In this document: positions 29,793 through 33,798 of the stretch, in pieces
Position numbering within the stretch: the first letter of the stretch is position 1
How the letters are laid out: each line of letters starts with the position of its first letter
Assembly: GCA_016235665.1 (NCBI GenBank)
Contig: JACRJI010000001.1
Location: 1-64,000, forward strand
Source: a candidate division TA06 bacterium
GTDB lineage: Bacteria; Edwardsbacteria; AC1; EtOH8
Length of the DNA stretch: 64,000 nt
Reading direction: 5' to 3'
The notes under the pieces: model-generated
What the model saw: the letters and a program-made list of their open reading frames with translations, nothing else
Database searches by the model: none
What the model was told of the DNA's origin: nothing
Program-made: the position numbers and the translations under genes

Positions 29793-30527
29793 TTAGTAAA
29801 TTATTCCGGTCAATCCCAAAACGCCCATTATATTAGTGGATTTTTCTTCGTCCCCAAGCTTCAGGTAATCCAGTCCGAAGGAGATGCCAAAGTGGGGCTT
29901 GGGCTGCAACAGCACACCGGCTCCTATCCTCATTGCATCCTCTTCGCCAAAGTCCGAGGTCAGAATGTCATATTCAAAAGATGCAAATGGCAGAACCTTG
30001 CTGTTTTTCTTCCCATGATAATAAGCCAGGCGTGGGCCTATCAAATTGACCGAGGTTCCAGAATTGCCAAAATAAGAAAAAGAATAATCCTCTTCATAAT
30101 CGGTTTCCCGCTTGGTGGACATGGACAATACCCCCAAGGTCCCTCCTATGGAAAACCCCTCGGCCACAAAATAATTTGCGTTAAATAGAACCGCATACAT
30201 ATAAGTTTTATATGTTATATCATATTCTATTGTAGTGCCTGAATACCAATCGTAATCGGTCCCTGTTCCAACGCTTTTATTGTAAAAATACAAACCGTTA
30301 CAAGAAAACAAATAGGCCCCGGCCAGGCTGTTAGCGTCTTTCATCTTCCTGACAGGCAGTGCCGGAGCGGTCTTGGACGCATTACTTTCAACTGCGATTG
30401 GCAGTTCCACGGCAGGGGCCGGAGCTTGAATGCTGTCGCCGGCAACGGGGACAGAGTCCGTCTGGGCCTGGACACCGGTGAAGGAAAACAACAGTATCAT
30501 TGAGCATAACGCGATGATGATTCTCAT
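29793..30527 (-). CDS. Outer-membrane beta-barrel protein
   Basis: 244 residues. Signal peptide 1-21 (cleavage after VQA), a proline/alanine-rich linker about 25-60, then eight or more amphipathic strands (SLAGAYLFSCNGLYFYNK, EGFSIGGTLGVLSMS, HFGISFGLDYLKLG) ending in GLTGIIY. The pattern fits a small porin-like or OmpW-like barrel; no substrate can be named. It follows rseP's upstream side by 13 bases on the same strand, and an AAAGGAG ribosome site precedes the ATG. Confidence 0.65.
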   Translation of the reverse strand: MRIIIALCSMILLFSFTGVQAQTDSVPVAGDSIQAPAPAVELPIAVESNASKTAPALPVRKMKDANSLAGAYLFSCNGLYFYNKSVGTGTDYDWYSGTTIEYDITYKTYMYAVLFNANYFVAEGFSIGGTLGVLSMSTKRETDYEEDYSFSYFGNSGTSVNLIGPRLAYYHGKKNSKVLPFASFEYDILTSDFGEEDAMRIGAGVLLQPKPHFGISFGLDYLKLGDEEKSTNIMGVLGLTGIIY

Positions 30528-30585: not shown

Positions 30586-32466
30586 TCATGGTATCATCAC
30601 TTCCAGCTGCATTCCCACCTCGGTCTTCCGGGTGGTCTCGTTTTCGTAATCCCTTATCTCCCGGGCCGCTTTCAGGTCCAGTTTGGCCCATTTCCCAAAA
30701 CCATACCTTAAGACCACTGCATCGCGGCGGCCCCGGCCCCAATAGCCATGGAAAGAGGCGTCGTTCAAAAGCTCCGGCTCGGAGGCGTAAAGCCGGGCGT
30801 CGTAGCCTTGGGTGTTGAACAGGACGCTTTGGCCCAACAGTGAGATATTTCGGCCGGCTTTGTATTTAAGCCCCAGGTCAAAACACTCGCCCCTCTCCCT
30901 GGTTTGCAGGAGAGGTATCCGGTAACCGGCCTGCTGGTAATGCCCGTAAAATGTATGCTTGCGGTTGATGTCCCAGGCCAGCGACAGTTTGTATGAGGTC
31001 TTGACCGCCAGGGCTTCAAAATCGTTTTCCCCATCGCTGGAATGGATCTCGTATTTGCCCTTTTGCCGCCAGCGCCAGGAAAGCTTCAAGTCTTTTATTA
31101 TATCATTTTCGGCGGCAAATTCCAACAAGTACCCCCCTTGTCCTTTGGCAACTTCCGCCCCGGCCGAAAGAGGGTGGAACAGGTAGCCCAGTCCGCTGAA
31201 CTTGTTCTTGAATGGTACTTTGACGGTGGAGCTGATCACAGCCCCCTGCTCGTCCCGGCCGCTGTAGTATTCCATGGCCCCGAACCTGGGCGCCTTGTAA
31301 CCTTCCCCATAGCGGTAATAGGCGAAATATGATTCGGCCGGGCCGCTGCGGAAACCCAGGGCGGCATTGGCGGCTGTCTGACCCGCGGTGGAACCGGCCA
31401 TTTCCGCCGCCAGCCATAACCCGGGAAACATCAGCCGGACATCAACCCCGGCATTGGCCCGGAAAAAAAGACTGTCGTTAAGGTTTGGAGAATAGCTCGT
31501 ATGACAGACCGTTGCTCCGATCTCAATTGGTTGATCCGGTTTCCAGCCCAACCGGACTGCCGCTATTCTTTCGCTGGATTTGTTCTTATTGGCATATTCG
31601 GAAGAATCGCGGTGGTAGCCGTCGGTGTAAATACCGGCGATATGTCCCAGGGAGTCAAGTTTGGCATCAATCCGCTTATGGGAAAAAAGCGCCAGAAGAG
31701 TGAGATCATACGGCAATTCCGTCTGACCGGCCAGTCCCCGCAAAAAAGCCGATTCGCTCCCGCTGTGATAGGGTTTGATCAATTGGGCCTGTTTAAGATT
31801 GGCCTGGGTCCATCCGGCCGAGACAATTGATCTCCCGCCGCCGCCCAGGATCAGCCCCTGGCCTATCCGCGAACTGAAATCGCCCGCCACCCAGGAATAA
31901 CGGCCATGGAGAGGGTTATAAAACAAATTGGCCGAATAAAAGTCTTTTAAACTGCCTTCGCCGGGATCCTTCTGGGCCTGGACAAACACTTCGTAATTTA
32001 GAAAAATATTTGTCGTAACTTTTTCCCTAAAGTCCCAGGGAGAGTTTACCTGGTCGCCCGAGGCCATTTCTTCTGCCAACGGCCAGGACCTTTTGGCCTT
32101 CAAGGCAGCTTTAACCAAAGGCTTTTTTGCCGCCAAGGTTCCGTCTATGCAGAGATATGGCAGGATAGCATCAAAACCACTTTGATCCAACACCGAATCC
32201 CGGACCAGCATTTCCGGCTGGCTGAGATTGGGGTTCTGTTTCAGGTAATCGCCGATCCTTAACGCCTGATAGGCGGTGATCCCCGGCAGCATCAGCAGTT
32301 GATCCAGCCCGGCATGATTCAGGTTGACCGGATGAGAACTCAGGTACGACAGCTCGTCGGTGTATTCCCGGATCAGTTCTTCGTCCTCTGTTTCCGGCAG
32401 ATCCTGGGAAAAGAGGACGGCGGAAGGCAACAGTAGCAAGAATATCAGTAGAAGGCGCTTGGGCAT
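30586..32466 (-). CDS. Helix-hairpin-helix / beta-barrel envelope protein
   Basis: 626 residues from the ATG at 32466; the open frame reaches 32496 but those ten codons are a TTTGCAATTTGCA-type intergenic repeat. Signal peptide about 1-20; a helix-hairpin-helix segment about 40-110 (VNLNHAGLDQLLMLPGITAYQALRIGDYL), then a long strand-rich region about 150-626 typical of a large outer-membrane barrel. HhH motifs bind DNA non-specifically. The upstream neighbour is also a barrel with HhH domains, 51 bases away, so the two are probably made together. No named family member is certain; HhH-containing barrels of this size are annotated as hypothetical in other diderms. Confidence 0.7.
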   Translation of the reverse strand: MPKRLLLIFLLLLPSAVLFSQDLPETEDEELIREYTDELSYLSSHPVNLNHAGLDQLLMLPGITAYQALRIGDYLKQNPNLSQPEMLVRDSVLDQSGFDAILPYLCIDGTLAAKKPLVKAALKAKRSWPLAEEMASGDQVNSPWDFREKVTTNIFLNYEVFVQAQKDPGEGSLKDFYSANLFYNPLHGRYSWVAGDFSSRIGQGLILGGGGRSIVSAGWTQANLKQAQLIKPYHSGSESAFLRGLAGQTELPYDLTLLALFSHKRIDAKLDSLGHIAGIYTDGYHRDSSEYANKNKSSERIAAVRLGWKPDQPIEIGATVCHTSYSPNLNDSLFFRANAGVDVRLMFPGLWLAAEMAGSTAGQTAANAALGFRSGPAESYFAYYRYGEGYKAPRFGAMEYYSGRDEQGAVISSTVKVPFKNKFSGLGYLFHPLSAGAEVAKGQGGYLLEFAAENDIIKDLKLSWRWRQKGKYEIHSSDGENDFEALAVKTSYKLSLAWDINRKHTFYGHYQQAGYRIPLLQTRERGECFDLGLKYKAGRNISLLGQSVLFNTQGYDARLYASEPELLNDASFHGYWGRGRRDAVVLRYGFGKWAKLDLKAAREIRDYENETTRKTEVGMQLEVMIP

Positions 32467-32517
32467 TTTTTGCAGTTTACAATTTGCAATTTGCATTTTG
32501 AAATCCAGCCTGTCCAG

Positions 32518-33798
32518 TTATTCTGCCGTGATCAGGTCCCTGATCTTCTCAAATGTCTTCCGGCCGATGCCCTTGACGTTCATGATATCCTCCGTCTGCT
32601 TGAAGAGCCCTTGAACACTGCGATATTCGATGATATCCGCAGCAGTGCCGGGGCCTACCTCCGGCAGGGCCTCCAGTTCCTTTTGATCAGCCGTATTTAT
32701 GTTGATCCTGGCCGCCGGCTGCTCCGGTTTGAATTTTAGATTGACGAAAGGCGCTACGTTTTCCAAGGTGCGCCGGGAGATGCCTTTGATGTTCCCCAGA
32801 TCGTCCAGAAAGACAAAGGCACCGGCGCTGTCCCGGAAGGCTATGATCTGCTCCGCTGTTTTGGCGCCGATCCCCGGCAGCATCTCCAGTTCCTTGGCCG
32901 TGGCGGTATTGATGTCCAGACTTTGGATGGATTTTTTAGGCAAGGGATCGGAGACCGCCGGAACAGTCTCCTCCGGCCAGACGGTTTGCCTTAAAATGCA
33001 GCTGACCGTCAAACAATGGCCCAGGCCCAGGGAGCTGTGGGTCTTTACGGCGTAGTCCAGCCTCAGTTTTTTCAGGAAAAGCCCCAGCCCGAAACTGAAG
33101 GAAGACGGCTGGCTGGAAAACCCGGCCCTTAAGGCCAGATGCCTGTTATGCCGGTACTCCTGGCCGAACCGCAACTGGGAATTGTATCCCCGCTGGGTCT
33201 GCAATTGGAAAGCAAATGTCAGCTGGTTCAGCAGGCGGTAAGAGACACCCCAGTCCAGCCATTGGGCGATCTCCTCATCAGAGCTGCCGATCCGGGGCCG
33301 GTTGAAGTTCCTTGCTACCGCCGCCATGGTCAGGTTTTCCAGGGGAGAACCGATGAGGCCCAGATCCAGACCCAGAGCGTTGGCCGAGCCGTAACTCTGA
33401 ATGGACAGGTTGTAACCCGAGATCCCCAGTCCGAATCCGGCCTGCTTGAAAGGCCTGAAGGATACCGCAGTTTTGATGGTGTTCTCCCTGTATAGAGCGC
33501 TGCCCATTGAGCTGAATCCTGCGGCCAGTCCCAGTTTTTCCTTTTGATATCCGGCCTGGGCCGAAACGGCTGTCAGGTCGGTCATACCGAACGGAATGGA
33601 GGTTCCGCTGCCGGCGGTCTGGACCGGGGCCAAGCACGGCAGGGCCGGGTTTTCCATTCCGGCTGAAAGATAGTCCGGCAAGGCGATCCCTGCTCCGCCC
33701 ATTCCCAGATTGCGGGCGTCGGTGGCGGTTTCCTCAAAGGCGGCAAAGCAGGCGGCAGAGATCAGCCACACCAAGATGAAGACCAACGTTTTTCTCAT
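32518..33798 (-). CDS. Outer-membrane barrel fused to two ComEA-type HhH domains
   Basis: 426 residues. Signal peptide 1-19, then a PorV/UPF0164-like barrel about 22-275 (ARNLGMGGAGIALPDYLSAGMENPA is the typical first segment). A short linker leads to two tandem ComEA-like helix-hairpin-helix domains, about 293-355 (LDINTATAKELEMLPGIGAK) and 363-426 (ININTADQKELEALPEVGPG). ComEA binds incoming DNA in the periplasm during natural transformation; here the module is physically tied to an outer-membrane barrel. Together with the next gene it may form a DNA-binding envelope complex. No other competence gene is in the window. Confidence 0.82.
   Translation of the reverse strand: MRKTLVFILVWLISAACFAAFEETATDARNLGMGGAGIALPDYLSAGMENPALPCLAPVQTAGSGTSIPFGMTDLTAVSAQAGYQKEKLGLAAGFSSMGSALYRENTIKTAVSFRPFKQAGFGLGISGYNLSIQSYGSANALGLDLGLIGSPLENLTMAAVARNFNRPRIGSSDEEIAQWLDWGVSYRLLNQLTFAFQLQTQRGYNSQLRFGQEYRHNRHLALRAGFSSQPSSFSFGLGLFLKKLRLDYAVKTHSSLGLGHCLTVSCILRQTVWPEETVPAVSDPLPKKSIQSLDINTATAKELEMLPGIGAKTAEQIIAFRDSAGAFVFLDDLGNIKGISRRTLENVAPFVNLKFKPEQPAARININTADQKELEALPEVGPGTAADIIEYRSVQGLFKQTEDIMNVKGIGRKTFEKIRDLITAE

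Follow-up and report, generated by a model that had tools for sequence, protein, structure and literature searches.

Why would a PorV-type outer-membrane barrel carry ComEA-type helix-hairpin-helix (HhH) domains, and why should it be encoded next to a second, larger barrel with an HhH head of its own? The question is raised by two neighbouring genes, here called P1 and P2, on the minus strand of the window, a stretch of 64,000 nucleotides from a candidate division TA06 bacterium of the Edwardsbacteria. The first-pass annotation had proposed that the two proteins tether DNA at the outer membrane.

Anatomy of the two barrels

P1 (32518-33798, minus strand, 426 aa) begins with a signal peptide (residues 1-20, ...ACFA/AFEE, 33739..33798), which is read from the sequence; the N-terminus is of low confidence in the AlphaFold model. 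This model, based on an alignment of related proteins (pLDDT 83.7), contains a 14-strand beta-barrel of the PorV/FadL type at residues 59-271 (32986..33624), a low-confidence linker at 275-290 and two four-helix HhH units at 292-354 and 362-424. Foldseek returns PorV (6h3i_F, E 9e-11) and FadL as top matches in the PDB. The curated PorV/PorQ family NF033709 scores 39 bits (6.8e-10), below its cut-off of 90; P1 is of a related fold but is no member of this family. The barrel had been described as PorV/UPF0164-like, and the PorV half of this label holds by structure and by the sub-cut-off score, while P1 has no match to UPF0164.

The first ComEA-type (HhH)2 domain comprises residues 292-354 (32737..32925) with the hairpins LPGIGAKTA and IKGISRRTL, and the second residues 362-426 (32521..32715) with the hairpins LPEVGPGTA and VKGIGRKTFEKI. 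PF12836 (HHH_3) matches both stretches with 5.3e-39, the ComEA repeat TIGR00426 reaches 107 bits over a cut-off of 53, and phmmer connects the second domain to the ComEA structures 8dfk/8dss (3e-12). The comE model TIGR01259 scores 126.7, below its cut-off of 152.35, P1 being fused to a barrel. The proposed order of signal peptide, barrel in the N-terminal half and two ComEA-type domains is therefore upheld by domain models, AlphaFold and Foldseek.

P2 (30586-32466, minus strand) has its likely start at ATG 32466, 51 bases from the P1 stop. A signal peptide read from the sequence (32407..32466) is followed by an N-terminal (HhH)2 domain at residues 46-106 (32149..32331) and a large beta-barrel at residues 118-625 (30592..32115). 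HHH_3 matches the N-terminal domain once, with 23.7 bits and below the cut-off of 27, and in a profile search this domain hits ComEA structures. The AlphaFold model, again from an alignment of related proteins (pLDDT 76.5, pTM 0.76), predicts a helical head and then about 24 strands, counted as strands of eight or more residues. Against the PDB, only the HhH is matched by sequence, and only generic large barrels are matched by fold (AlgE, the ushers PapC/FimD). Signal peptide, HhH region and strand-rich region are thus all present as first annotated, with the qualification that the HhH is degenerate: GxG is found at either hairpin in none of 58 members of the P2 family. Because GxG is missing at both hairpins throughout these 58 members, ComEA-like DNA binding is not expected of P2.

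Both ends of such outer-membrane barrels normally face the periplasm. The C-terminal HhH domains of P1 and the N-terminal HhH of P2 are therefore expected on that side of the membrane, in agreement with the placement assumed initially. Both P1 domains are (HhH)2 domains with GxG hairpins, and the hairpin glycines are kept in nearly all P1 family members, as binding of DNA would demand; in the window copy, one hairpin per domain is relaxed (IKGIS and LPEVG). In ComEA of B. subtilis, four lysines have been tested, and K199A nearly abolishes transformation (PMC9747964). In the second P1 domain, K, K and R align with K193, K197 and K199, as read by eye from the phmmer alignment, and in the first domain, likewise read by eye, only the position of K193 is basic among the four. 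Neither domain has a basic residue at the equivalent of K164. The HhH tails of P1 are net acidic (pI 5.1), and the HhH of the ComEA encoded in the same genome has a pI of 9.8. DNA tethering by the pair is plausible, if unproven.

Distribution of the pair and of the HhH fusion

Nine of the ten genomes of the Edwardsbacteria family carry the fused pair, with P1 and P2 adjacent in all nine; G006, which is 88% complete, has no match. The pair usually lies between ftsZ and rseP, but on the pieces read for G001, G003 and G004 part of the flanking gene content is different. A further gene of the window, between P2 and rseP (29793-30527, minus strand), encodes a protein of 244 aa that has a signal peptide, looks strand-rich, is kept in relatives at 33-64% identity and matches no family. 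A 4-bp overlap of the P1 and P2 genes, which suggests coupled translation, is present in five of the eight Edwardsbacteria loci that were measured and in many loci of the phylum to which genome G054 belongs.

A contig search with the single P2 sequence gave nothing, and it was the profile search that found the P2 family. Unfused pairs, with a PorV-type barrel followed by an HhH-headed barrel, occur in Parabacteroides, Tannerella and other Bacteroidota and also in G010. A DUF4294 gene (L097:6378-6989) is divergent from the pair in Parabacteroides and relatives. In the G054 phylum, the P2 profile matches 81 of 82 genomes, in a few of them through the HhH part alone. Among the best 30 loci there, a PorV-type gene is directly upstream of the P2 gene in 29, and the thirtieth lies where its contig ends; one of the 29 upstream genes is truncated by a contig boundary, which leaves 28 complete. 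A DUF6913 gene lies downstream of the pair in this phylum. We conclude that the pair is conserved across several phyla and is no local oddity.

One fused HhH is carried by seven of the 28 complete P1-like partners in the G054 phylum, and these tails are mostly basic, unlike the acidic tails of P1. In a tree of the barrel part, the Edwardsbacteria form a single fused clade. Since this tree needs seven fusion changes, at least four of them forced by well-supported branches, the sequences point to repeated gain or loss of the HhH fusion to the PorV partner, in two phyla. This recurrence, with its at least four gains or losses, is a hint that ComEA-like domains may work together with the pair. DNA holding by HhH domains cannot, however, be what the family as a whole primarily does, because most pairs are without the fusion.

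Competence genes and a paralogous pair

The pair had been thought to act without the usual secretin-associated receptor, which does not agree with the gene content. The genome encodes a 144-aa ComEA followed by genes judged by sequence to be PilB- and PilT-like, a PilQ-like secretin (at 274 bits slightly short of the cut-off of 284) and ComEC, the latter on a different contig from the pair. The pair is therefore an addition to a conventional ComEA/type IV pilus/ComEC set and no replacement of the usual receptor. A neighbourhood with comEC or pilQ, which had been suggested as a check in relatives, was also not found: neither com genes nor pilQ lie beside the pair at any locus inspected. Presence of ComEC (57 of 61 genomes) or of PilQ-like proteins (58 of 61, E 0.001) is too common to serve as a discriminator, and absence of PilQ from the pair-bearing G054 phylum cannot be claimed, since none of 81 genomes there passes the cut-off and 57 of the 81 have matches below it.

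A second pair is encoded in the same genome (L021:5125-8495), and its PorV-type partner carries no HhH. It belongs to a cassette (L021:381-13541, contig C8 of G000) in which a surface protein of 1113 aa, with domains of the Big_5, OB-fold and DUF5689 types, is followed by the PorV-type barrel, the HhH-headed barrel, a barrel of the FadL type and a 5'-nucleotidase. Comparable gene sets containing OB-fold/DUF5689 or LTD proteins were found in G005, G012, G016, G034 and G039, and all except that of G016 include the nucleotidase or a protein related to it. By its gene content, the cassette looks like one for extracellular nucleic-acid use; the match between its first protein and the ExeM/NucH model is confined to the N-terminal part of the latter, which leaves nuclease activity putative. 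In Riemerella anatipestifer, a DUF5689 protein and the barrel encoded beside it are required for transformation (PMC8459023). This parallel is the best hint that such barrels may handle nucleic acids, but it concerns the paralogue.

Possible roles in type IX secretion or DNA holding, and relation to known systems

Several features hint at a link between the pair and type IX secretion (T9SS): the PorV-type fold, a porD neighbour in the G054 phylum and co-occurrence with SprA. PorD is matched by the divergent neighbour of the pair in 24 of the 30 loci from that phylum, and porD is also adjacent in G010. Six wider regions from different families have PorD and the pair in common amid flanking genes that mostly vary. 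PorD is a component of the SprA/Sov extended translocon, to which it binds via SprE/PorW (PMC10994853, PMC8754138). In a domain-wide sample, SprA is present in all seven lineages that carry the barrel and in 10 of 52 lineages overall (P about 9e-7, assuming independent lineages); shared ancestry may explain part of this co-occurrence. In the Edwardsbacteria genomes G001, G004, G005, G007, G008 and G009, as in G000 (L022:6189-12001, contig C15), a ComEA gene follows the SprA gene; in G000 it lies 5 bases downstream of SprA and lies upstream of the PilB/PilT-like genes.

The best reading of these data, to which we commit only tentatively, is an outer-membrane pair derived from T9SS parts that holds DNA under the membrane where HhH domains are fused. 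P1 and P2 would be co-expressed as an old module of Bacteroidota and related phyla, in which a PorV-type 14-strand barrel sits beside a barrel of about 24 strands with an HhH-shaped periplasmic head, resembling PorV with the giant SprA. In Edwardsbacteria, the two ComEA-type domains of the PorV-type partner would hang into the periplasm, where they most likely would hold double-stranded DNA arriving at the inner face of the outer membrane and stop it from sliding back, as ComEA does, during uptake or degradation. Contact between P1 and P2, the binding of DNA, any passage through P2 and the direction of transport are all suppositions of this model. For DNA holding we count the fold and domains, the P1 hairpin glycines, the K/K/R of the second domain, the 4-bp overlaps, fusion in two phyla, the paralogous cassette and DUF5689 in Riemerella. 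Against it we count the acidic P1 tails, the non-basic K164 equivalent, the first domain with one of four lysine positions, the P2 HhH without hairpins, the lack of an adjacent competence gene, the existing ComEA/type IV pilus/ComEC set and the porD neighbour in the G054 phylum.

Several of these points would suit a type IX accessory, with P1-type proteins as PorV-like carriers or anchors of cargo, P2 as partner barrel and HhH domains as protein-binding or plug-like spacers. We hold this to be only slightly less probable than DNA holding. The PorV fold, PorD as a divergent neighbour among otherwise mostly varying genes, SprA in every barrel-bearing lineage and the degeneracy of the P2 HhH everywhere are all consistent with it, as are the FlgD_ig/CHU_C C-terminal domains of the surface proteins that precede the paralogous pair. 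It leaves the repeated joining of ComEA-type HhH with intact hairpins to the partner unexplained; moreover, no PorD is recognisable in Edwardsbacteria, the pair has no obvious cargo gene as a neighbour in the window, and the SprA co-occurrence may reflect ancestry. A broader version of the preferred DNA-holding reading, in which the pair, built from T9SS parts, is an outer-membrane DNA gate throughout Bacteroidota-like phyla and fused ComEA-type domains, where present, act as the periplasmic ratchet, appears unlikely to us. Least probable is scavenging, in which the pair would serve nutrition by binding and importing DNA fragments or nucleotides, as the paralogue appears to do: the OB-fold/LTD surface proteins, FadL-type barrel and 5'-nucleotidase near the paralogous pair (own genome and G012, partly G034 and G039) favour it, but the window pair has no nuclease or nucleotidase nearby and the ExeM/NucH match is partial.

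Each part of the pair belongs to a known fold family, and the combination and the paired module are undescribed as far as our searches reach; in the open-access literature searched, we found no description of a PorV-HhH fusion or of an HhH barrel, in line with the initial statement that no such system is known. P1 shares with PorV and the FadL family the 14-strand barrel and a larger barrel encoded beside it, and differs from PorV by the sub-cut-off score, the C-terminal HhH tails and a 24-strand HhH-headed partner instead of SprA. The large barrel with a PorV-type partner recalls the SprA-PorV translocon, but P2 has about a third of the length of SprA and no relation to it in the searches here. 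With ComEA, P1 shares HHH_3 domains with hairpin glycines and the expected periplasmic location; it differs by its barrel tether, two tandem domains, overall acidity and the lack of competence neighbours, in a genome with a separate ComEA. The Riemerella proteins RA0C_RS04920/04915/02645 are alike in comprising a surface DUF5689 protein, an outer-membrane barrel and an HhH protein needed there for transformation; they are separate proteins, and the barrel is described with a carboxypeptidase-regulatory domain (PMC8459023).

The route of DNA across the outer membrane is unsettled for transformable Bacteroidota such as Riemerella, and several proteins essential in the Riemerella transformation screen bear no resemblance to any part of the well-known uptake machinery (PMC8459023). 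The two-barrel module, near-universal in the G054 phylum, linked to T9SS by gene order and repeatedly fused to ComEA-type domains, is a concrete candidate, with DNA or protein as its putative cargo. G038 has 29 matches to P1, most of them in the HhH region and many within large open frames, which amounts to an expansion of HhH proteins, and in G027 (L037, contig C47) multi-HhH proteins of 291 aa (three HHH_3) and 220 aa are encoded near a ComEC-like gene.
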